Positions 8,558-62,209 of a DNA stretch of 64,000 bases are shown here, piece after piece. The position numbers and the translations under genes were made by a program. A model generated the notes under the pieces. It saw only the letters and a program-made list of their open reading frames with translations, was not told the DNA's origin and did not search any database. This DNA comes from Aphelidium insulamus (Eukaryota; Aphelidiomycota; Aphelidea; Aphelidiaceae). The first letter of the stretch is position 1; every line of letters starts with the position of its first letter. The DNA lies in assembly GCA_036784855.1 (NCBI GenBank), contig JAZDSV010000006.1, positions 159,001-223,000 on the forward strand, read 5' to 3'.

Positions 8558-8639
8558 TGCTTCCTGTGAGACTCGAACTCACGCCTCTTTCGAGACTGCA
8601 ACTTGAGTGCAGCGCCTTAGACCGCTCGGCCAAGAAAGC
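8558..8639 (-). tRNA. tRNA-Leu (anticodon CAA), intronless
   Basis: 82-nt cloverleaf read on the minus strand. The acceptor is GCTTTCT/AGGAAGC with discriminator A. The anticodon stem CTGCA/TGCAG encloses loop CTCAAGT, giving anticodon CAA. A class II variable arm (CTCGAAAGAG region) and T-arm GTGAG-TTCGAGT-CTCAC follow. The sequence is identical to the copy at 10609-10690. A T-run (TTATTTTTG on the sense strand) just downstream fits a Pol III terminator. No intron is present next to the anticodon, although many eukaryotic tRNA-Leu(CAA) genes have one. Confidence 0.95.
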
Positions 8640-10608: not shown

Positions 10609-10690
10609 GCTTTCTTGGCCGAGCGGTCTAAGGCGCTGCACTCAAGTTGCAGTCTCGAAAGAGGCGTGAGTTCGAGTCTCACAGGAAGCA
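10609..10690 (+). tRNA. tRNA-Leu (anticodon CAA), second identical copy
   Basis: Same 82-nt sequence as the minus-strand copy at 8558-8639, here on the plus strand. The acceptor stem, CTCAAGT anticodon loop and T-arm are all intact. It is followed by TTATTTTTG, a likely Pol III terminator also shared with the other copy. Upstream flanks differ beyond a few bases. Confidence 0.95.
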
Positions 10691-41125: not shown

Positions 41126-44100
41126 ATGACGTTTCCGCCACCACCGACGCCCCAAGCAGCCGCGGACGACGATGCCGTGCGCGCCACAAACAGCAGCAGC
41201 ATCCAGAGCAAGCGATCTATGCAGCATTGGGGCTACCTGCCAACTCTGGACGCGCGGCCGCACGTCGACATTGCGCATGACGGCGGCTCACGACGCGTTC
41301 CCCGACGCGCCCCGCTGATCAATCGGTAAGGATGGCTGGCGTGAGTGTACTCCATGCATATTCTCTGACATACACGCAGCGGCTATTACATACGCACGGT
41401 GGCCATGGACCATGTCATACGGGAGTTTGTGCGCTGCGTGTCGGCTGCCGGCATGGCACCGCAAATCATCTCGCTTGGTTGCGGCTTTGACCTCTCCTAC
41501 TTTCGCCTGCTGTGCGGTGGTGACTTAGACAGCGGCAGTGGCAGGGTGGCAGGATATGATGCCTGTGGAGATGCTGTGACCACCACCTGGGTGGATGTGG
41601 ACTTTGCCGAGTTGACGCGCAAGAAGCGTCAAACCATCCTGGCAGAGGCGGCGCTGCATGACCGGCTCTTCCCGCCGTTGCCATTGAGCACGGCTGAGAC
41701 GCCACGCCGCTCGGAGCCGCACCGTCAATGCCACATTGACGGTGCAGCAGAGCTCCACGCACCGCACTACCACTTGATGCCGTGCGATTTGCGGCGCACC
41801 GACCAGCTGGACGCATTGCTTGCGTGGCTGAGTGCCCGCGGCAGTTTTGACACGGCCGCCCCGACGCTCTGCATATCCGAGTGCGTGCTAACCTACCTGC
41901 AGGTGGAGCAGGCAGACGCGCTGCTCTGCCATCTCAGCGCCACCCTGACCGCCTGTGCCGTGATGGCGTACGAACAGGTGCGGCCGGACGACGCGTTCGG
42001 CGTGACAATGACGCGGCACTTTGACCGCATGCACGCGCCCATCCACGCCATCCACCGATATCCCACACTGGCTACACAGCGACGGCGCTTCATGGACAAC
42101 GGCTTCCTGGACTGCCAGCTGGTGGACTTGAATCGGTTCTGGCTGGACCCGCGGTTGACTGATGCTGCAGAGAGGGGGCGCATTGCCGCGCTCGAATGGT
42201 TCGACGAGCACGAGGAGTGGGCTCTTAAGTGTGCACACTACTTTGTCGCGTATGCATACAGTGCCACCGATTCCGCCATGGCTGCTGTCCTGGCCAGTGT
42301 GCAGCTGGAAGTGCCAATGTCAGGGTGTTCATCAGCGAAGTTGAATATCAATTTCGGCGTTACCGCGGGGCCAACAGTCATGTCGGCGCAAACCATCAAT
42401 ATGATCAACGGGGAAGCAGCCTTGGAGCGGTGGGGACACACTGCCACGTCACTTGGTGACGGAGAAAAGGTTTTCATATTCGGTGGCTACGGCCACAATG
42501 CATCCAGCAATGCAGACACGAAACAGTCCCAGTACGCAAGACAGGCCCACCCGTGCACCATTTGCACTACAGGGAAACTAGCCGGTAAGTTACAATAACT
42601 ATTGCAGTGCTAAATACTAATATTAAATTGCTAATGGCGGGCAGAGTTTGTGCAGCATAACTCATATGGCGAAATACCGCCAGCAAGGATTTATCACACT
42701 GCCACCGGCATCGGCAATCATGTCTACGTATTTGGTGGCCGCGCTGGTCCCGCCCAAGCATTCAGTGACTTGTGGGAGTGCCGGCATGGCGATGACACTA
42801 CACTGGAGTGGAAGCGTCTCGAGACTGGCAACGGGCCAGGCGCCCGATTTCGACATGCCGCTTGTCTCCTGCCGCCATGCCCCGTGACCCGCGACGAAGA
42901 GGCAATCTTGGTTCATGGCGGGTTGACCCCATCACCTGGTGGCAAGTGTTCTTTTGTGGCGCCTGACCGCCATTCCTGGTTGTTTCTGCTAAAGTCACGT
43001 TTTTGGGTGAAGGCAGATTTCGGACTGCCGCCGTCCATACACTCTTTCTCAATGGTGCACAACAATGGTTCAGTATTTTGCTTCGGTGGGATGAACGATA
43101 ACCATTTTCCTCGTCATGGCATCATAGAGTGCAAACTTCCCACCGACTGTGTTGGCCGGCCACCCCTGGTATCCGCCCATACCCCAATTGGATGGGTCGG
43201 CAGAATTGGTCCACAGGTCCATTCCACGGGCCCTGGACGCTTCTTAGTTGTCGGCGGTGTTATAAGCGACTCACAAGTCCTGGACGGAGAATTAGATAAC
43301 CACAACATGGTGGAGGTCGATTTAGTGTCAAATGTGTGTCGATCAGTGCTTTTGCCGCAATTCGACCCACCGACGATGTGGAGCGGGCATAAATCCGTCT
43401 TGGCGCCTGGCAACACTGATGGCACATTCAAACTACGAGTTTTTGGTGGCGGCGCAGTCTGTTTCTCCATGGGCTCATACTTCAATGGTGGCATCAAAGA
43501 AATTTCACTGCATTGTTGTGGTGCAAGAGAACCCACTGTGGCTTCCGGTCAAGGGTGGATTGCGCATTCAACGCAGGTGCCATCCTTTGATTACTGCAAC
43601 GTAGGTAATGATGACCTGAGCGCCTTGTACGCTGGTCGTCGGCCGTTTGTCATTCGAGGTGCGCCACTCGGTGACTGCACCACTCGATGGGCGTCAAAGG
43701 AATATCTGAGGAACTCGGCATTGACTTATCAAGATACAAAGGTGAGCGTCCATGTTGGCCAACACGCACAGCTGGGATTCGCTGGTGGCAAAAATTACAA
43801 GTACCACACAATGCCGTGGAAGTCAATTGTTAACCAGATGTTTGCCGACGACAATTCCCATTTGTATTTGCGCTCCATTGGGGTGAATGCACGAAAAGAA
43901 GCATCTCACATGTCAAAGTCGTTTCCAAATCTTGCTCGCGATGTCAAAATACCCGGCAAGATTGCTGCAATGATTAGCGGACAGCCTGCATCAGATCTGT
44001 GTCTAGAAGATTTTGAAAAGCAGTGCACAAGATATTTTAGTTCTGTGCTGCGAATGTCAAGCCCCGGCATGAAAGTGTGGACTCATTATGATGTGATGGA

Positions 44101-44653
44101 CAATGTACTGATGCAAACACGGCGCACAAAGTTCGTCACCCTGTTTCCTCCTGATCAGTCTGCTGCTCTGTATGTCGATCCAGCCATCAACAAGAGCAGC
44201 AGTCCCGTACTGGATGTGTTTGCACCGTATGACTCACCATTTGCGTCCGAGGCGGCAATGAGTGAAGAGGAGCTTCATGAAGCATATCGGCTGTACCCGC
44301 GGTTCTTTGACGAAGCTCGAAAATCTGCATGGACCACGACACTCTATGAGGGAGATATCCTTTTCATACCGGCGCTATGGTTCCATCATACATACGCCAG
44401 CGGAGAAGATGAAAGGGACGGACCCGTCATGTCGGTAAACGTTTTTTGGCGACATTTGGAACCTGCGTGCTACGACTCCAAGGACTTGTATGGAAACAAG
44501 GATCTGCTGCGGGCAAATGAAGCTTCAGCCCATTTTAACAAGGCGATGCTGTGTCTTGATGACCTGAAGGACCATGCACCAGATTATCACCGTTTCTACG
44601 TGGACAAGCTGACTGAAATGCTGACAGAAAGAATTAAATGCGAACTGGAATAG
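41126..44653 (+). CDS. TYW4: TYW4/PPM2 wybutosine methyltransferase-methoxycarbonylase with kelch and JmjC domains
   Basis: Final enzyme of wybutosine formation at position 37 of tRNA-Phe. The start at 41126 keeps the conserved N-terminus ATNSSSIQSKRSM and, across an intron, APLINRGYYIRTVAMDHVIR. The SAM-binding core is QIISLGCGFDLSYFRL, then VDVDFAELTRKKR, ISECVLTYLQVEQADALL and YEQVRPDDAFG. A kelch propeller follows (FIFGGYGHNASSN, YVFGGRAGPAQAFSDLWECR, VFCFGGMNDNHFPRHG). The JmjC domain has the iron ligands HYD in KVWTHYDVMDNVLMQ and the His of PALWFHHTYAS. The stop at 44653 is 32 bp from the convergent MCCC2 stop. The three-domain order is the fungal TYW4 form. In animals the hydroxylase is a separate protein, TYW5. 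Confidence 0.93.
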
Positions 44654-56430: not shown

Positions 56431-56699
56431 CTCCTGCACTCAGCAGCATTTTGCGTAATCAGTTTTAGTGCACGGAGAATATCTTATTGTCAGTCTAAAC
56501 AAACTATATCTTTTAGAATTGGCTGAATTGATGAAAGGTCTGTCAGTCTCCATATTGCATATGTAGATATTTCGAATCAAGTTGGGTAACGTAAATAATA
56601 TATATGCGCATTCCATGTAGAAATAGTGTAATCTTGACGCTTCAATTTTTACTGCCTCAATGTGGGAAGTTGCATTGGTTAACCCGACTAGAGGGCCTC
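56431..56699. other. AT-rich gap before the Fanzor 3' hairpin
   Basis: About 270 bp of AT-rich sequence between the ankyrin-gene promoter and the hairpin at 56700. No gene or RNA is recognised. If an omega-RNA guide segment existed it would be expected at the right edge of this stretch. Confidence 0.4.
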
Positions 56700-56740
56700 G
56701 ACATTGTCCGTCCTAGACATAGTCCAGGATGGACAATGTC
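56700..56740 (-). other. Hairpin just 3' of the Fanzor pseudogene, candidate omega-RNA scaffold or element end
   Basis: Arms GACATTGTCCGTCCT (56700-56714) and AGGATGGACAATGTC (56726-56740) pair with one G/T-type mismatch around an 11-nt loop. It begins 30 bp past the Fanzor stop, on the 3' side, which is where TnpB/Fanzor guide-RNA scaffolds and element ends lie. Part of it (CCTAGACATAGTCC) recurs inverted at 59845-59857. Confidence 0.45.
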
Positions 56741-56769
56741 CGGCTTGCTAGCCTTCTCCAGGTGAGCAT

Positions 56770-58996
56770 TCAGCTCCCCCTGCAAGGCAGCCGACATAGG
56801 TCAGCTGGTTGCAGTTGCTGCCTGATGGCAGCATTGGCAATTCGCCAAATATTAGTAGCAGCGTTACAATTGCGGTTCCAAATGTGTGCGCAATTGTCAC
56901 AAGTGACACAACTTCTGTCCATCACGCCATCACGTGGTCGCCGCTCTTGTGGCGCACAGTTTGCACGCAGTTGCTGATTAGTGGCACACCAGCTACACTG
57001 CTTGCTTGAGCGGAATTCATCCACCAAGTAAACCTTGTAACCAGCTCTACGCAACGTTGTACGAAATCCTTTCCCCTTCACTGGCTGCGATGCTGACTCT
57101 GCGCCCAGTCACCAATTGCCACAATTGTATCTTGTGGTGGCCCAAAGAGCTGGCAAAATTTGTTGATCATTAATGCCTCCGATTTTTGCCGCAGAAAGTA
57201 TGAGCCCAAGTTTAACTTTCAAAACAGATGTTGGCCATAAAATTGTTGGACGCGATGATTGTATGTCAATTTTGCTTGAAGATAGCCGCGGTATTCAGCA
57301 AAGTTGAGCGTTTTGTGGTTGAAGGCGGTGAGCATCAATTCCCATTGTGTAACAGACATGTTGTCAATTATCTCGCGCTTTTGCAACTTCTGCCTAATTG
57401 CTGCATACTTGTCGGCCAATGTTTCATTATTGCGTTGCTACCGAAATTTCGTCTGATTTCGATCGGATCCCTGCACGCAATAGAGCAAGTTGCCCATATT
57501 CGGATCAATTCCAACAATTTTTTTTTAGCCAGATCAGAATAGTCGGCGAGCTCGTCAATATACTGATCTGGAGGCGTACAGGAGTGTTTTCGCTTTCGTT
57601 TTGGTACCTCCTTCTTCAGTATAATGCAGCAGCTGACGGAATCGGTTACTATTTGAAAGTCAAAGCGAAATTGATTTCGTCCATCCTTTTGCAACTTGAA
57701 ACATTGTTGGTCAGTGCGGAAAAAATTGTTCCACAAATCTTTTTTTGTTTGCTCCGTTAAGGACTTGGTATCTTTTCGTGGAATGTTTGCTGCATTTTTC
57801 GGATAACATATATCAATTAGTGCTTTAGTGTCGATTCAAATATGTTTTGGTACCACGCTGGTCTGCACAGGAAGTACATTGTACACTCGTGCATCACGAC
57901 CTTCAACTTGACGCATCATGTACACCATTGGCCGCATATAATCAAACGTCCGCGCCTTCAGGTCATAAACAATATTGTCATTGGTAAGTGGTCGCCGAGG
58001 AAGAACAAATGGTCGCTGGGCTGCAATCCAAACGTGATATTGCTCGTCCGAAGTGGCTTCCAGGTGTGGATTAAGCAGGTCCATCTTGATGCTTTTTAGA
58101 TCAGCGCAAAGCCGATCTTTTGCAGCCTGTTTGCACTCTTCATTGGGATCAAGATCGATTTCTTGTAACCGTTCTTGCTTGTTGAAGCTCACGTTGACAA
58201 ATCGCTCAATGTATTTCACAAACGTGCCTACAATATTGTTGCGATACATTGTCTCAATTTCTTGTGCCGCGTAGTGTAGTACCTGTAGTAGTTGCACGTA
58301 AGAATATTTTTTGACGCAATGTGTAATACATACCTGGCCTAGATTCGCATAAGAGATACGCTCCTGCTGAATCGGCTGAAAAAATTGCTCATATACTGGC
58401 TGCATTTTGCGAAATATCTCGTAATTTTCGCCCTGTAAGTGGTAACCTCTTGTCGGCGGCAATGATACAATTTTCATTGCCATCATTGCGTGTGCATAAT
58501 TGACTGGTGGTAAATCTTCATTTTGATGATAGAGTCGCAGAAGGTAGAGCTTTAGGAAGAGGTATCCTTGGGTAACAATGATGTTTGTTCGTTTAACGGC
58601 ATCATGTATCGCTTCCATCGCAGTTGGGCCATAGCGGTATTCATTGGGGTCAACTGTAGTTGGATTGGCACTTTTGCCGCCTTTTGTTCTTGGCTGATCA
58701 GGCGGCTCGTCTGTGACAGTATTTTCATGCCTATTGTCGGTGTTATTATTATTCCCTCGTTCACTTTTCCTTTTTCGAGTGCCGCGTCGTCCTGGCGGCG
58801 GTTGTTGTCTGCGGCGTACACCCATTGGAACTTTCACGTTGTTGACCTTTCTGTATTTGATTCGGATTTTTGGCGGAACTCGTGGCACAATTATGCGCTC
58901 CATCTTGATCACATGGCGCATACTCGTTTTTATAGTCTGATATATAGCGCCGTCTCCAGGATCAGGAACATTGCTGGATGACCCAGAGCCAGCCAT
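56770..58996 (-). pseudogene. Fanzor (eukaryotic TnpB-like RNA-guided nuclease) relic
   Basis: The start at 58996 gives MAGSGSSSNVPDPGDG. A basic, NLS-like stretch (RRGTRKRKSER), a long helical region (AMEAIHDAVKRTNIIVTQGY; EIETMYRNNIVGTFVKYIER) and RTFDYMRPMVYMMRQVEG follow. A 51-nt intron (58283-58333) splices cleanly. Next come the Fanzor-typical HI-x-IDTKALID, LWNNFFR, FRFDFQIVTDSVS, RuvC-I GIDPNMGNLLYC, a helix (DKYAAIRQKLQKREIIDNMS), the RuvC-II stretch IVAIGDW, KVYLVDEFRSSKQCSWC and the second zinc half CVTCDNCAHIWNRNCNAATN. Lesions: TGA 57836-57838, a frame change in A9 (57518-57526), TAG 57438-57440, TGA 57219-57221, a frame change at about 57090-57105, and the RuvC-III Asp replaced by Asn (codon 56869-56871). 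Everything else is collinear, so this is a decayed copy rather than a chance match. Confidence 0.85.
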
Positions 58997-59049
58997 TGCT
59001 ATCTGAATATTCACATATTTCCATGAGTTCACGATCAGAAAATGTTATT

Positions 59050-59480
59050 AACGTGCCGTATCAGCAACTGGAATTCCCTGTAGCGTAATCAGAGGTGTGT
59101 GCAGTGGCTGATATCTGAATCAAAATTAGCGAAAATCGTATTAACGCACAACGTACCTTCTCGGAGTTTTATAGTGGAAATCAGTTTAGGTGATTGTTGG
59201 TATCAAATTGCAAGGCGCGTGTAGGTTAAATGCACCGTACCAACAATGAATGCCCTAGTACGTAATCGGAGTGGCGTGTAGTCGACAATGTCTGTATTAA
59301 TATTAGATCGTCACATGAAGCACAACATACATTTTCAGAGTTTATGGTGGAATCGGTGTGGCCGATTGTTGACCGGTGCAAAATCAAATCGAAACTGCGC
59401 TATATCTGCATTGGCATAAGAATAGTCGCACAAAAGCACAAAGTACCTTTCTCAGAGCTTAATGTTGTAATCAGCAGAAG
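59050..59480 (-). repeat. Three degenerate tandem exon-intron modules in the Fanzor 5' leader
   Basis: A 35-39-nt block starting GCACAA recurs at 59146-59184, 59320-59356 and 59437-59475. On the minus strand each copy ends an exon-like stretch with a donor-like GTACGT/GTATGT/GTACTT. Each is followed by a T-rich intron-like stretch with CAG. The exon-like parts of copies 1 and 2 (about 59050-59114 and 59225-59290) also align, sharing CTCYGATTACG and AGGG-ATTC. Confidence 0.55.
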
Positions 59481-59531
59481 AATTTGTGAAAATGTGTGCG
59501 TGTGAATCGAGCTGCGTGCTTGAGGCCCGTC

Positions 59532-59541
59532 CTTTTATATC
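59532..59541 (-). promoter_or_regulatory. TATA box of the Fanzor relic
   Basis: On the minus strand GGATATAAAAGG, about 540 bp upstream of the Fanzor ATG and directly upstream of the repeated leader modules. A perfect TTGACAGCTGTCAA palindrome follows at 59547-59560, then an AAGGTCA half-site array at 59563-59600 and a CCAAT-type box (CCGACCAATCA) at about 59611-59621. Together this looks like a once-active core promoter. Confidence 0.5.
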
Positions 59542-59562
59542 CGCGTTTGACAGCTGTCAAGA

Positions 59563-59600
59563 GCCAAGGTCAAGGTCAAGGTTGAAAGGTCAAGGTCACG
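59563..59600. repeat. Array of AAGGTCA half-sites
   Basis: Five to six copies of AAGGTC(A) in direct orientation (CCAAGGTCAAGGTCAAGG, then AAAGGTCAAGGTCACGGTCA) in the region upstream of the Fanzor TATA box. Confidence 0.65.
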
Positions 59601-59716
59601 GTCAGCATTTGATTGGTCGGTAATGACGCGGCGCCACCAGTAGGTTCCCACGAATGTACCTGTGGCACAACGCACGGCATCTGTGAAGCGATTCAAAAAT
59701 TATGGCCTTGTTCTAA

Positions 59717-59752
59717 TAGCGTGACAATAGCGTGACAATAGCGTGACAATCA
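59717..59752. repeat. Three-copy 11-bp tandem repeat (AGCGTGACAAT)
   Basis: Perfect tandem repeat of AGCGTGACAAT in three copies, in the non-coding stretch between the Fanzor leader and the right candidate inverted repeat. Confidence 0.8.
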
Positions 59753-59828
59753 CTGCGTGTAGTTATGCTAGCAGGAACGTTTAAGTACGATGCGAAAAAT
59801 TTATAGCATAGTACTGCTTTTGGCCGCT

Positions 59829-59857
59829 GATATTGTTATGGTGCGGACATGTCTAGG
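59829..59857. repeat. Right candidate inverted repeat of the Fanzor-bearing element
   Basis: GATATTGT (59829-59836) and GGACATGTCTAGG (59845-59857) are the inverted counterparts of ACAATGTC (56733-56740) and CCTAGACATAGTCC (56712-56725), with one 1-nt indel in the core and one mismatch in the outer block. The pair would bracket 3.1 kb containing the Fanzor relic with its promoter. Confidence 0.35.
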
Positions 59858-60223
59858 TCCAGCATGAAGACGCTCTGATGGATGACGTGGACAATATTAG
59901 TGGCGCGGCCTGGCATTATTGGAGAAGCTTTCTGTTGAGCTTGACAATAATGATATAGGCATGATGTGGCATGGGGCAGTGCGTACGCGTTTCGGGTAGT
60001 ATTGCTGTACGTGAAGAAGCAGCGTCACGATTCCACGGGCGGCATCGTGAACCATAGTGCAAAGAGTGTCAAACAAATGAACTTGAATGAAGGTGAAAAT
60101 GAACTTAAATGAGAGGCGTAGCATACGAATAAAAACGGTTTGGTGGGTGGATGCATAGATTATTATGAAGCATTGCAGTGGTTTGTAAATGCGTACGTGA
60201 TCTCATCCGGAAGCGTTAGCAGA
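59858..60223. other. Intergenic region right of the candidate Fanzor-element end
   Basis: About 365 bp between the right candidate inverted repeat and the stop codon of the next minus-strand ORF. It includes GAATAAAAAC at about 60128 on the plus strand. Nothing else recognised. Confidence 0.4.
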
Positions 60224-61920
60224 TCACCTATTTTGACGGGGCGTGGCTACCTTGCGCTGCTTGCTGGGACCCATGGCGGCAAGCGCCGGTTTGCGCTTGG
60301 CAACAGGGACGGGTGTTACTATGTCCGAAATGGGCATTACAGGTGTGTCAACACCATTGTCAGCCGAGGAGGAGCTACCGCTGGCTTCAGCCATGTACAT
60401 TGCACGACTTGGGCCAGCAGCATTAGAATTGCGTGTTGGTGTCTTCCCTTTGCTCGCAGCAGTGCTACGCGCTGATTGCTTTGGCGCTGCATTTTTGTGA
60501 AAGTTTCGAAGCGCATCCGAGACATTCGGGTCCCCAGAAAGCGTGCTGCCATCAAAGTCACGTGCCGGAATCTTGCCCTTCTCGGCCGCAGTGCGTGGAT
60601 GGTCGACAATTTCAACAAAGTCACGTGACGGCATCTTGCCCTTCTCGGCAGCGGTGCGCGCACGCTGGGCATGCTGAGTGCTGGAGCCGGCACCATTGTC
60701 CACGCCACCACTGTTGTCAGCATCATCGGCATCGTCAATCAGCGTAATTACCGTCTTACGCGTAGCTGTAGCAGTGCGTGCCGCCTCTGCAGCAACTTCT
60801 TCGTCATGAGCATCGATCTGTTCGAGCAAGTCCGCCAAAATTTTGTCATTGTTCGCCGACGAACCCAATGGCGGTTTGGTGGAGGATGCCGCAGTGGTTG
60901 CTTCGGCCTTTAAACCAGGGGTTCCCGTTGCATCAGCTTTTGCCGCAGTACCACGGCGCGTAGCTGGAGGAAGCGGCGACGAAGCGGCGGTCAGAGTAGC
61001 GTGGCGCGCAGGTTGCGTAGGTCGGCGGAAGTTCCACAGCGAGCTGGCAGCGGGCGACGTAACACCGGGCGTAGCGGCGGCAATCACATTACGTCCTCCA
61101 GTGACAGATGCAAACGTGAAGTCAGTTGGATCGAGGCAGATCCTTGTCACCGAGTTGTCCGCAACAACAACATCACCCAGGCAGCCTGCAGAGCAGATTA
61201 GTTATTACACGGTGTAAAACACTGGGCACGTACCGCTGAAGAACAACGCAGAGCGGCAACGGACTTCCCCACCATGTTGCCATACTGAGTGACGTTGTAG
61301 GCGCACTCGAACTGACGGTATCCAGTCAGTGACTGCGAGATATATCAACGCATATCGTACCGTGACATTGGCACTAATGCTGTTGGCGTACAGTGGCGTT
61401 TCGATCTGGATTGCCGTGTTGCTGGGGCCGTTGTACGCGCCCACACCAAAGATACGCGGAGAGAATGGCGCTGCAGTTTGTTTTGTGTGTCAGTATGAAT
61501 GCATGTATACGCGTGTATGCGTGTGTGTAAACGTACGCTGATCGCCATGCAGCGGGAGCAAACGGCTCCCGCTCCTTGCCTCCACCAGCATGAAAATCGG
61601 CTCGAGAGAACGCGTGTTGACGCGACCTTCTAGGATGTAGGTGCACGTCGGCATGGGTTCAACCACCTCGCGATCCACGTCCGTCCACGACACCAAGATG
61701 ATGTCCACGGCTGCAACAGGAGACACTGTCAGTCACTGTTACACGGCACTGTCACAGCAATCACGATGTGCTTACGGTGCGTGGTGCCGGCAAAAACCGT
61801 GGCATTGCTGCGGATCCAGCGCGAACCACGCGCGTCCGAGTCGTCCGGGTTGCAGAGTGCTGAAATGTGCTCAAGGAAGACTGCGGGCGCTGCGACGCGC
61901 GGCTTTTATGCTGCGGCAGA
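60224..61920 (-). CDS. Unrecognised protein with a repeated, disordered C-terminal tail
   Basis: Minus-strand exons joined by short introns. Exon 1 (left end near 61798, starting codon not identified) includes ALCNPDDSDARGSRWIRSNA. Exon 2 is VDIILVSWTDVDREVVEPMP with CTYILEGRVNTRSLEPIFML. Exon 3 is PRIFGVGAYNGPSNTAIQIE, exon 4 YNVTQYGNMVGKSVAALRCS, and the last, long exon starts GCLGDVVVADNSVTRICLDP. The folded part has the beta-strand spacing of a small globular domain. The tail is Ala/Ser/Thr-rich with an imperfect repeat: RTAAEKGKMPSRDF, RTAAEKGKIPARDF, STAASKGKTPTRNS. It ends SKQRKVATPRQNR, a nuclear-type basic end. Family unknown. It may be cargo of the neighbouring mobile elements. Confidence 0.5.
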
Positions 61921-62209
61921 AGTTGTATCACATAATTTCAGGCAGGAGCGAGGATTGGTCGTCAAGGTGGAGAGGGCCAATCGGGGCAGAAAGTGCACAT
62001 TTTTGTAAATTAGTTGTCGGGCGCTTTTATGATATGAATCCATCATCACTCTGGGTGAAGTGGGAAAATTTTTTCCGCCAATCACAACGTAGCGGCGAAC
62101 AGCCGCTATTCCCCCTTGCGCTGTGTGTGCGCTATAAATACAATGTGCTTGTCAGTGTGTCAGCTCTTTGTTTATTCAGTCGGTGAGCCGCCGCCGCCGC
62201 CGTGCTCGC
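61921..62209. promoter_or_regulatory. Non-coding gap with plus-strand TATA and the Crypton polyadenylation signal
   Basis: The gap holds TATAAATA at 62133-62140 (+) and TTTATT at 62171-62176. Read on the minus strand the latter is AATAAA, 34 nt after the recombinase stop. CCAAT-type motifs lie at about 61955 and 61978. GCATAAAAGCCGC just inside the next gene and CATAAAAGCGCC near 62025 are TATA-like on the minus strand. Confidence 0.4.

Follow-up and report, generated by a model that had tools for sequence, protein, structure and literature searches.

A decayed Fanzor1 gene in a probable non-autonomous Helitron1-type element of Aphelidium insulamus, and reassortment of element halves among its relatives

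An association between Fanzor nucleases and Helitron transposons has already been described (PMC3627910; PMC10432273). Fanzor1 proteins are characterized by the motif D-X(125,275)-[TS][TS]-X-X-C4 zinc finger-X(5,50)-RD (PMC3627910). In Chlamydomonas reinhardtii, copies of the CRe elements with the consensus 5' end lack target-site duplications (TSDs), whereas 5'-truncated copies bear TSDs of 7–19 bp (PMC3627910), and the Helitron Helraiser gains new 3' ends by read-through and insertion next to other Helitrons (PMC4778049). Here we analyzed a stretch of 64,000 nucleotides from Aphelidium insulamus (contig JAZDSV010000006.1, contig positions 159001–223000, hereafter the window), in which an initial annotation had pointed out a fossil Fanzor gene on the minus strand. 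By sequence comparison this gene is a decayed Fanzor1; it lies at 56770–58996 as had been proposed, but the 5.35-kb Helitron-like carrier around it (56688–62037) had been missed. We interpret the carrier, with a probability of about 0.8, as a non-autonomous Helitron1-type rolling-circle transposon with Fanzor1 beside its 3' end, of which the window copy is dead. This interpretation starts from four observations, namely Fanzor1 homology, common element ends with A and T junctions, decay of the window copy and reassortment.

The genome (17.95 Mb, 169 contigs) was searched with the zinc-finger profile PF07282, which gave 18 matches, 16 of them above the cut-off, one of those being counted by its neighbours. 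All 18 loci were taken into the comparison and grouped by sequence into family A (n = 6: L009, L010, L012, L019, L023 and the window copy, L022), family B (n = 8: L011, L013–L017, L025, L026) and family C (n = 3: L018, L020, L021), with L024 as a single divergent B-like copy outside these families. The last 112 amino acids of the window gene gave a match (E = 1e-9) to PF07282, the zinc-finger domain TNB, and the same 112 residues alone matched PpFz1 (Parasitella Fanzor 1) at E = 1.3e-6; because of these two values the match is not attributed to chance, although it concerns one of the five gene pieces and the remaining four matched no Pfam family. The open-frame paralogue L012 matched the characterized Fanzor1 proteins SpuFz1, PpFz1 and GtFz1 (E = 1.3e-27, 4.7e-21 and 2.3e-7, respectively), and L020 of family C matched PpFz1 at E = 2.7e-29 in an alignment starting at residue 38, so that the proposed Fanzor identity stood up to the profile test. 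The full Fanzor1 motif was found in L020 and homologues; in the window copy its final RD fails, the residues being RN and the frames broken.

Representative proteins of families A, B and C showed 42–47% amino acid identity, and in a tree of 27 proteins the three families formed one clade (support 82), in which A was joined with B (support 100). Separate capture of the families from different sources was rejected on account of this clustering, which makes old divergence within one lineage more likely. A viral origin was rejected as well, since tblastn confirmed none of the 14 pattern matches in viral_contigs as a relative.

The D-E-D triad is kept in all three near-identical copies of family C and in 6 of the 8 family B copies, whereas no family A copy (n = 6) combines both Asp residues. 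Asn stood at the RuvC-I position in 6 of the 18 loci (L009, L010, L012, L023, L011, L024) and Asp in the other 12, and RuvC-III read RD in 12 and RN in 3 (window copy, L019, L023); in the motif table, L011, L017 and L024 gave no RuvC-III pattern. An alternative RuvC-II Glu preceded the zinc finger in 18/18 loci, as YLVDEF in family A, YLVNEF in family B and L024, and YLVDEH in family C. The TDG motif, which lies in the wedge domain (WED) of Fanzor1 (PMC10711439), was present in families B and C, while the aligned rows of family A, like homologue P0011, had TDS there. Zero substitutions were counted over the last 400 bp of the three family C copies, and this near-identity indicates that family C moved recently. 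Thus 'fossil' fits the window copy but not the family as a whole. L018, L020 and L021 differed by 0–0.7% substitutions, yet indel cells reached 1.3% in 100-bp bins, hinting at assembly errors that all three copies may carry; in L020 the frame is disturbed over a short stretch relative to the other two. Separately, L020 contains at residues ~380–595 an insertion of ~215 amino acids between the WED TDG motif and RuvC-I, which the other aligned rows lack and whose second half is rich in Arg, Gly and His.

The carrier was delimited by aligning the ends of its copies:

56688..62037, minus strand: whole Helitron-like element, 5,350 bp, with 5'-TC at 62037 and CTAG-3' at 56688 (aligned ends)
56700..56740, minus strand: 3' terminal hairpin, fold score z = −7.6 over the terminal 60 nt; Helitron-type right terminal sequence

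The left end starts with TCATAT at 62037, a start common to 10 intact left ends, and the base ahead of it was A in 9 of these. On the right, pairwise comparison gave a sharp CTAG end in family A, the same four bases close families B and C, and T followed CTAG directly in 16/16 right ends (L014 and L024 left out, one internal CCTCTAG match in L009 removed; 15 independent ends, as L009 and L010 occupy one site). Assuming that the junction bases are host sequence, the probability by host base frequency was ~2e-5 for A at 9 or more of 10 left ends and 5e-10 for T at the 15 independent right ends. No junction duplication of at least 7 nt was found in the 6 copies with intact left and right ends (window copy, L015, L017, L018, L020, L026). 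In the damaged-left-end copies L010 and L016 the left junction has an A followed by a repeat of the first bases of the right flank, which extends over 11 bp in L010 and over 12 bp in L016 (the last 6 being possibly element sequence), and since both repeats begin with the T after CTAG, this T is favoured as target sequence. The hairpin, a candidate end of a guide-RNA scaffold, ends 12 nt before the CTAG end in family A, of which four copies gave z = −6.2 to −7.6. Regarding the other end, neither an asymmetric terminal inverted repeat (ATIR; inverted match of at least 7 nt) nor a 5' fold was detected in one copy each of families A, B and C; the element has no terminal inverted repeats (TIRs), and it lacks the ATIRs and 5' hairpin of Helitron2. 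A family A hairpin with a CTAG/TC end (slash at the junction) also occurs without Fanzor at L059 (C92:86550-87050; end at C92:86572). The left flank of the window element (62038–62100 and beyond) is itself a repeat, present at 11 other places, where the matches stop within ~15 bases of the junction.

Comparison of the copies along their length divided the element into two parts:

60150..62037, minus strand: 5' module, left terminal side, common to elements with other Fanzor families (module comparison)
60150..60254, minus strand: hinge of ~105 bp where the exchanged halves meet (12-copy alignment)

The 5' modules of 11 copies were compared (L012, L016, L023, L026 and shorter remnants left out), and in 10 of them the difference between families was 3.2–5.6%, L025 alone being 8.5–12.2% from the rest. 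The window module differed from nine of the ten others by 3.9–5.6% substitutions (12.2% from L025), and it was about as far from L019 of its own family (3.9%) as from L020 of family C (4.2%). Conversely, the Fanzor half of L012 was 88–100% alike to that of the window copy in 16 of 17 200-bp bins, the remaining bin being a deletion in L012, whereas its 5' part, compared short of its left end, had a match in no more than 3 of 9 bins (71–74%), and its 5' module was 65–77% alike to the other type I modules. This second 5' module type, that of L012, was also found beside L023 (98% over 158 bp), at C89 (88%) and at C46 (87%). The hinge was present in 12 copies with sharp edges and in identical order and orientation, the other 11 being at 85.7–94.3% to the window, including L012 with the other 5' module. 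Since divergent Fanzors share a 5' module and near-identical family A Fanzors carry two, the Fanzor gene and the 3' end behave as a cassette, and such Fanzor/3'-end cassettes have reassorted with Helitron 5' modules. Read-through and insertion like those of Helraiser would produce this mixing; most likely, replication would overrun a weak 3' end into the 3' half of a neighbouring element. A 325-amino-acid frame at 60224–61201 in the 5' module was considered as a companion gene and rejected, because its substitutions showed no strong third-position excess (10 comparisons) and it contained frame-breaking indels; it matched no Pfam family at E ≤ 0.1, and no homologue was found among 8,000 candidates scored.

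The Fanzor gene of the window copy consists of the following parts:

56770..58996, minus strand: decayed Fanzor1 gene, ATG at 58996, last frame ending at 56770 (profile and paralogue comparison)
57836–59044, minus strand: open frame piece 1, 402 aa, stopping at TGA 57836–57838
57368–57835, 57219–57437, 57078–57218 and 56770–57108, minus strand: further open frame pieces (frame list)
58283..58333, minus strand: probable spliceosomal intron, 51 nt, GTATGT..ACTACAG, in frame (alignments)
57836..57838, minus strand: premature stop 1, TGA, nonsense change (CGA in L012 and L019; same stop in L023)
57438..57440, minus strand: premature stop 2, TAG, made by a 9-bp deletion (paralogue comparison)
57219..57221, minus strand: premature stop 3, TGA, nonsense change (paralogue comparison)
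57495..57512, minus strand: RuvC-I, GIDPNM (GIDPN) (L012 homology and motif table)
57010..57030, minus strand: alternative catalytic Glu, YLVDEFR (VDEF) (homologue alignment and motif table)
56890..56997, minus strand: four-Cys zinc finger, CSWC 56986–56997 and CVTCDNC 56890–56910 (profile match)
56861..56877, minus strand: RuvC-III, NRN, Asp to Asn (paralogue comparison and motif table)

The Fanzor hallmarks were collinear on the minus strand at the place reported initially, though spread over three reading frames. Relative to its paralogues, the window copy carries three premature stops, the first of which is the 'x' of the HI-x-IDT motif, and two frameshifts, one from a base lost in an A run upstream of RuvC-I and the other from a 10-bp deletion ahead of the zinc finger. 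Two motif assignments held in part. The GDW stretch taken for RuvC-II is present but contains no Glu; an alternative Glu is found in YLVDEFR, and the catalytic Glu of Fanzors sits directly ahead of the TNB domain (PMC11423790). The motif given as NRxCNAATN was located, but it reads NRN-CNAATN, the catalytic Asp being replaced by Asn. This Asn was rejected as proof by itself of dead catalysis: GtFz1 has Asn at this position and the D606N mutant of SpuFz1 has higher activity (PMC11423790), so the change need not kill.

The proposed intron found support as an intron-like insertion, and a spliceosomal origin is plausible from its sequence. It is present in the window copy, L019 and L023, the three family A copies in the alignment that retain the region, which is deleted in L012, lacking in L010 and outside the alignment in L009; neither the proteins of families B and C nor 11 aligned homologues contain it. 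Differences among family A copies cluster at CpG, with transitions at 0.10–0.20 per CpG site and other differences at 0.013–0.025 per remaining site (six pairwise comparisons, four copies), a ratio of ~5–10. Methylation-driven decay of family A would fit this enrichment, but is no more than a candidate cause because the window's element is not depleted of CpG (observed/expected 1.08; whole window 1.04, L020 0.58).

Several observations weigh against a Helitron-type element. The window copy's own left end is preceded by T, the sole exception among the 10; the hairpin is weak in 3 family B copies and 1 family C copy (z = −1.2 to −1.7 over the terminal 60 nt), and L009 and L010 lack it altogether; PF14214 (Helitron_like_N) and PF20209 / DUF6570 matched nothing in the genome, but these profiles likewise gave no match in any control genome. 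For the window element no empty site turned up: the match of the one candidate compared, L058, a copy of the left-flank repeat, ends at GGATTC and is not followed by the right flank. The last 100 nt were not specially conserved in family A (mean difference 6.6% versus 1.5–3.8% in seven other bins); the difference was ~1% in family B (other bins 0–7.3%), and family C was identical there but uniformly young, so that this comparison supports neither presence nor absence of a guide RNA. At the gathering threshold, the RNA-family search of the window returned two tRNAs only. Searching the genome with the PIF1 profile gave 21 matches. The missing RepHel match and the weak hairpins of families B and C would suit an unclassified transposable element moved by another recombinase, with TC...CTAG ends by coincidence, and some other fungal Fanzor carriers are indeed unclassified (Mucor MCi-2, with 11–12-bp TSDs and variable 5' regions; PMC3627910). 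We nevertheless regard this as unlikely, since the A/T junctions, CTAG, the family A hairpin 12 nt from the end, the lack of TIRs and ATIRs and the confinement of duplications to two copies, both damaged at the left end, are all in keeping with a Helitron.

It could further be argued that the near-constant 5' module, set off by the sharp hinge from differing Fanzor families, is a separate repeat beside which Fanzor elements inserted repeatedly. However, order, orientation and hinge recur in 12 copies while the outer left flanks vary by site, and many independent insertions at one place are less likely than joint movement; we therefore consider a separate repeat quite improbable. As for the state of the gene, the indels of the otherwise near-identical family C copies and the window lesion inside a homopolymer run raise the question of whether much of the apparent decay is assembly error. 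Two nonsense substitutions, the 9-bp and 10-bp deletions and the Asp-to-Asn change are not homopolymer slips, and the excess of CpG transitions is a signature of decay, which leaves assembly error with hardly any credit. The non-autonomous Helitron1-type transposon accordingly remains our preferred interpretation, and RepHel supplied in trans would move it. In this interpretation a transcript through the 3' hairpin would supply an omega RNA scaffold and flanking host DNA the guide; working copies would cut the insertion-free allele, and repair would then copy the element in.

The base following the T at the right junction was C at 5/5 independent family A sites and in the Fanzor-less C92 relative, and A at 9/9 exact family B ends and 4/4 exact family C ends (chance of a constant next base 0.0046, 2.8e-5 and 0.017 for A, B and C, respectively), tracking the Fanzor/3' cassette and not the 5' module. 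For family A, the genome-wide end pattern gave 5 exact and 6 one-mismatch matches, and because the reversed control gave 16, the latter may be due to chance; for families B and C a 16-nt end with two mismatches allowed was used, a search in which deviating flanking bases would have shown up, and rows with mismatched ends (2 for B, 1 for C) were excluded from the flank counts. One of the two duplications starts with TC and the other with TA, so that the bases in question are probably part of the target. The preference could be imposed either by the transposase or by Fanzor cutting, and the latter is worth testing because the target-adjacent motif (TAM) of PpFz1 is 5'-ATN (PMC11423790).

We tentatively raise the possibility, which we think more apt to fail than to hold, that Fanzor, the 3' hairpin and CTAG form one exchangeable homing cassette, in which the hairpin would serve as Helitron terminator in DNA and as omega RNA scaffold, and the insertion site would be the Fanzor TAM, A/TC for family A and A/TA for families B and C. 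Such sites would be expected if spread had been confined to insertions for which the allele without the element is open to cutting (PpFz1-like ATN). The system allows TAMs (ATC, ATA) and the ends of guide RNAs to be predicted beforehand, and its 5' and 3' halves in varied combinations make the idea of peel-and-paste plus cut-and-copy testable in eukaryotes. Three Fanzor families in one genome, including three near-identical, triad-complete family C copies, on Helitron1-type ends bear on the question of why a copying transposon of the HUH (His-hydrophobic-His) type keeps an RNA-guided nuclease.

The host had been surmised to be zoosporic, and the genome contains six distinct loci for dynein heavy chains (E ≤ 1e-40), which support a flagellated cell. 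The fungus Spizellomyces punctatus is zoosporic. Pfam matches in the window (Epl1, BRE1, RGS, LCM/Kelch/Cupin) were read as eukaryotic. The LCM methyltransferase, Kelch and Cupin_8 domains lie in two adjoining frames at 41369–44650 on the plus strand, an arrangement that resembles TYW4. A pair of tRNA-Leu (CAA) genes was found in opposite orientation ~2 kb apart (8558–8639, minus; 10609–10690, plus). Outside the window, a long frame (L023 7055–9049) adjoins L023's family A Fanzor copy; by eye it resembles a Ty3/gypsy polyprotein.

What we provisionally regard as new is a Helitron1-type Fanzor carrier in a flagellated host together with reassortment; in the available parts of the open-access Fanzor and Helitron literature, no fungal Fanzor carrier of the Helitron1 type was found to be described. 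SPu-1 of Spizellomyces punctatus also encodes a Fanzor1, SpuFz1 (PMC10432273), which was the best match by fold for one predicted model, and Fanzor-less ghost elements reported in Spizellomyces compare with the C92 copy; SPu-1 differs in having 33-bp TIRs, TA TSDs and a 2.1-kb length, and is not Helitron-like (PMC3627910). PpFz1 of Parasitella parasitica matched by sequence in families A and C (E = 4.7e-21 and 2.7e-29), and its 5'-ATN TAM would fit the A/TC and A/TA sites. It differs by the FRI insertion in RuvC (PMC11423790), to which its residues ~1015–1090, uncovered in the A and C alignments, may correspond; family C instead has its long insertion ahead of RuvC-I, after the TDG motif of WED. 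Helraiser (Helibat1) shares the 5'-TC and CTAG-3' ends, its palindrome lies 11 nt from the end as against 12 nt for the family A hairpin, and its target is AT with TT as a minor alternative; it differs in encoding RepHel, and no Fanzor is mentioned in the available part of that article (PMC4778049). A further parallel is provided by CRe-1, CRe-2 and CRe-3 of Chlamydomonas reinhardtii, which likewise carry Fanzor1 in transposase-less Helitron-type elements, comprise several families with common 5' ends, contain introns and show TSDs tied to 5' damage, as in L010 and L016 (PMC3627910). The CRe elements are of the Helitron2 type, with two hairpins, ATIRs, a TTTT target and a common 5' part of 200 bp (PMC3627910), whereas the elements described here are probably of the Helitron1 type, with one 3' hairpin, no ATIR, TC/CTAG ends, A/T junctions and a common 5' part of ~1.9 kb.
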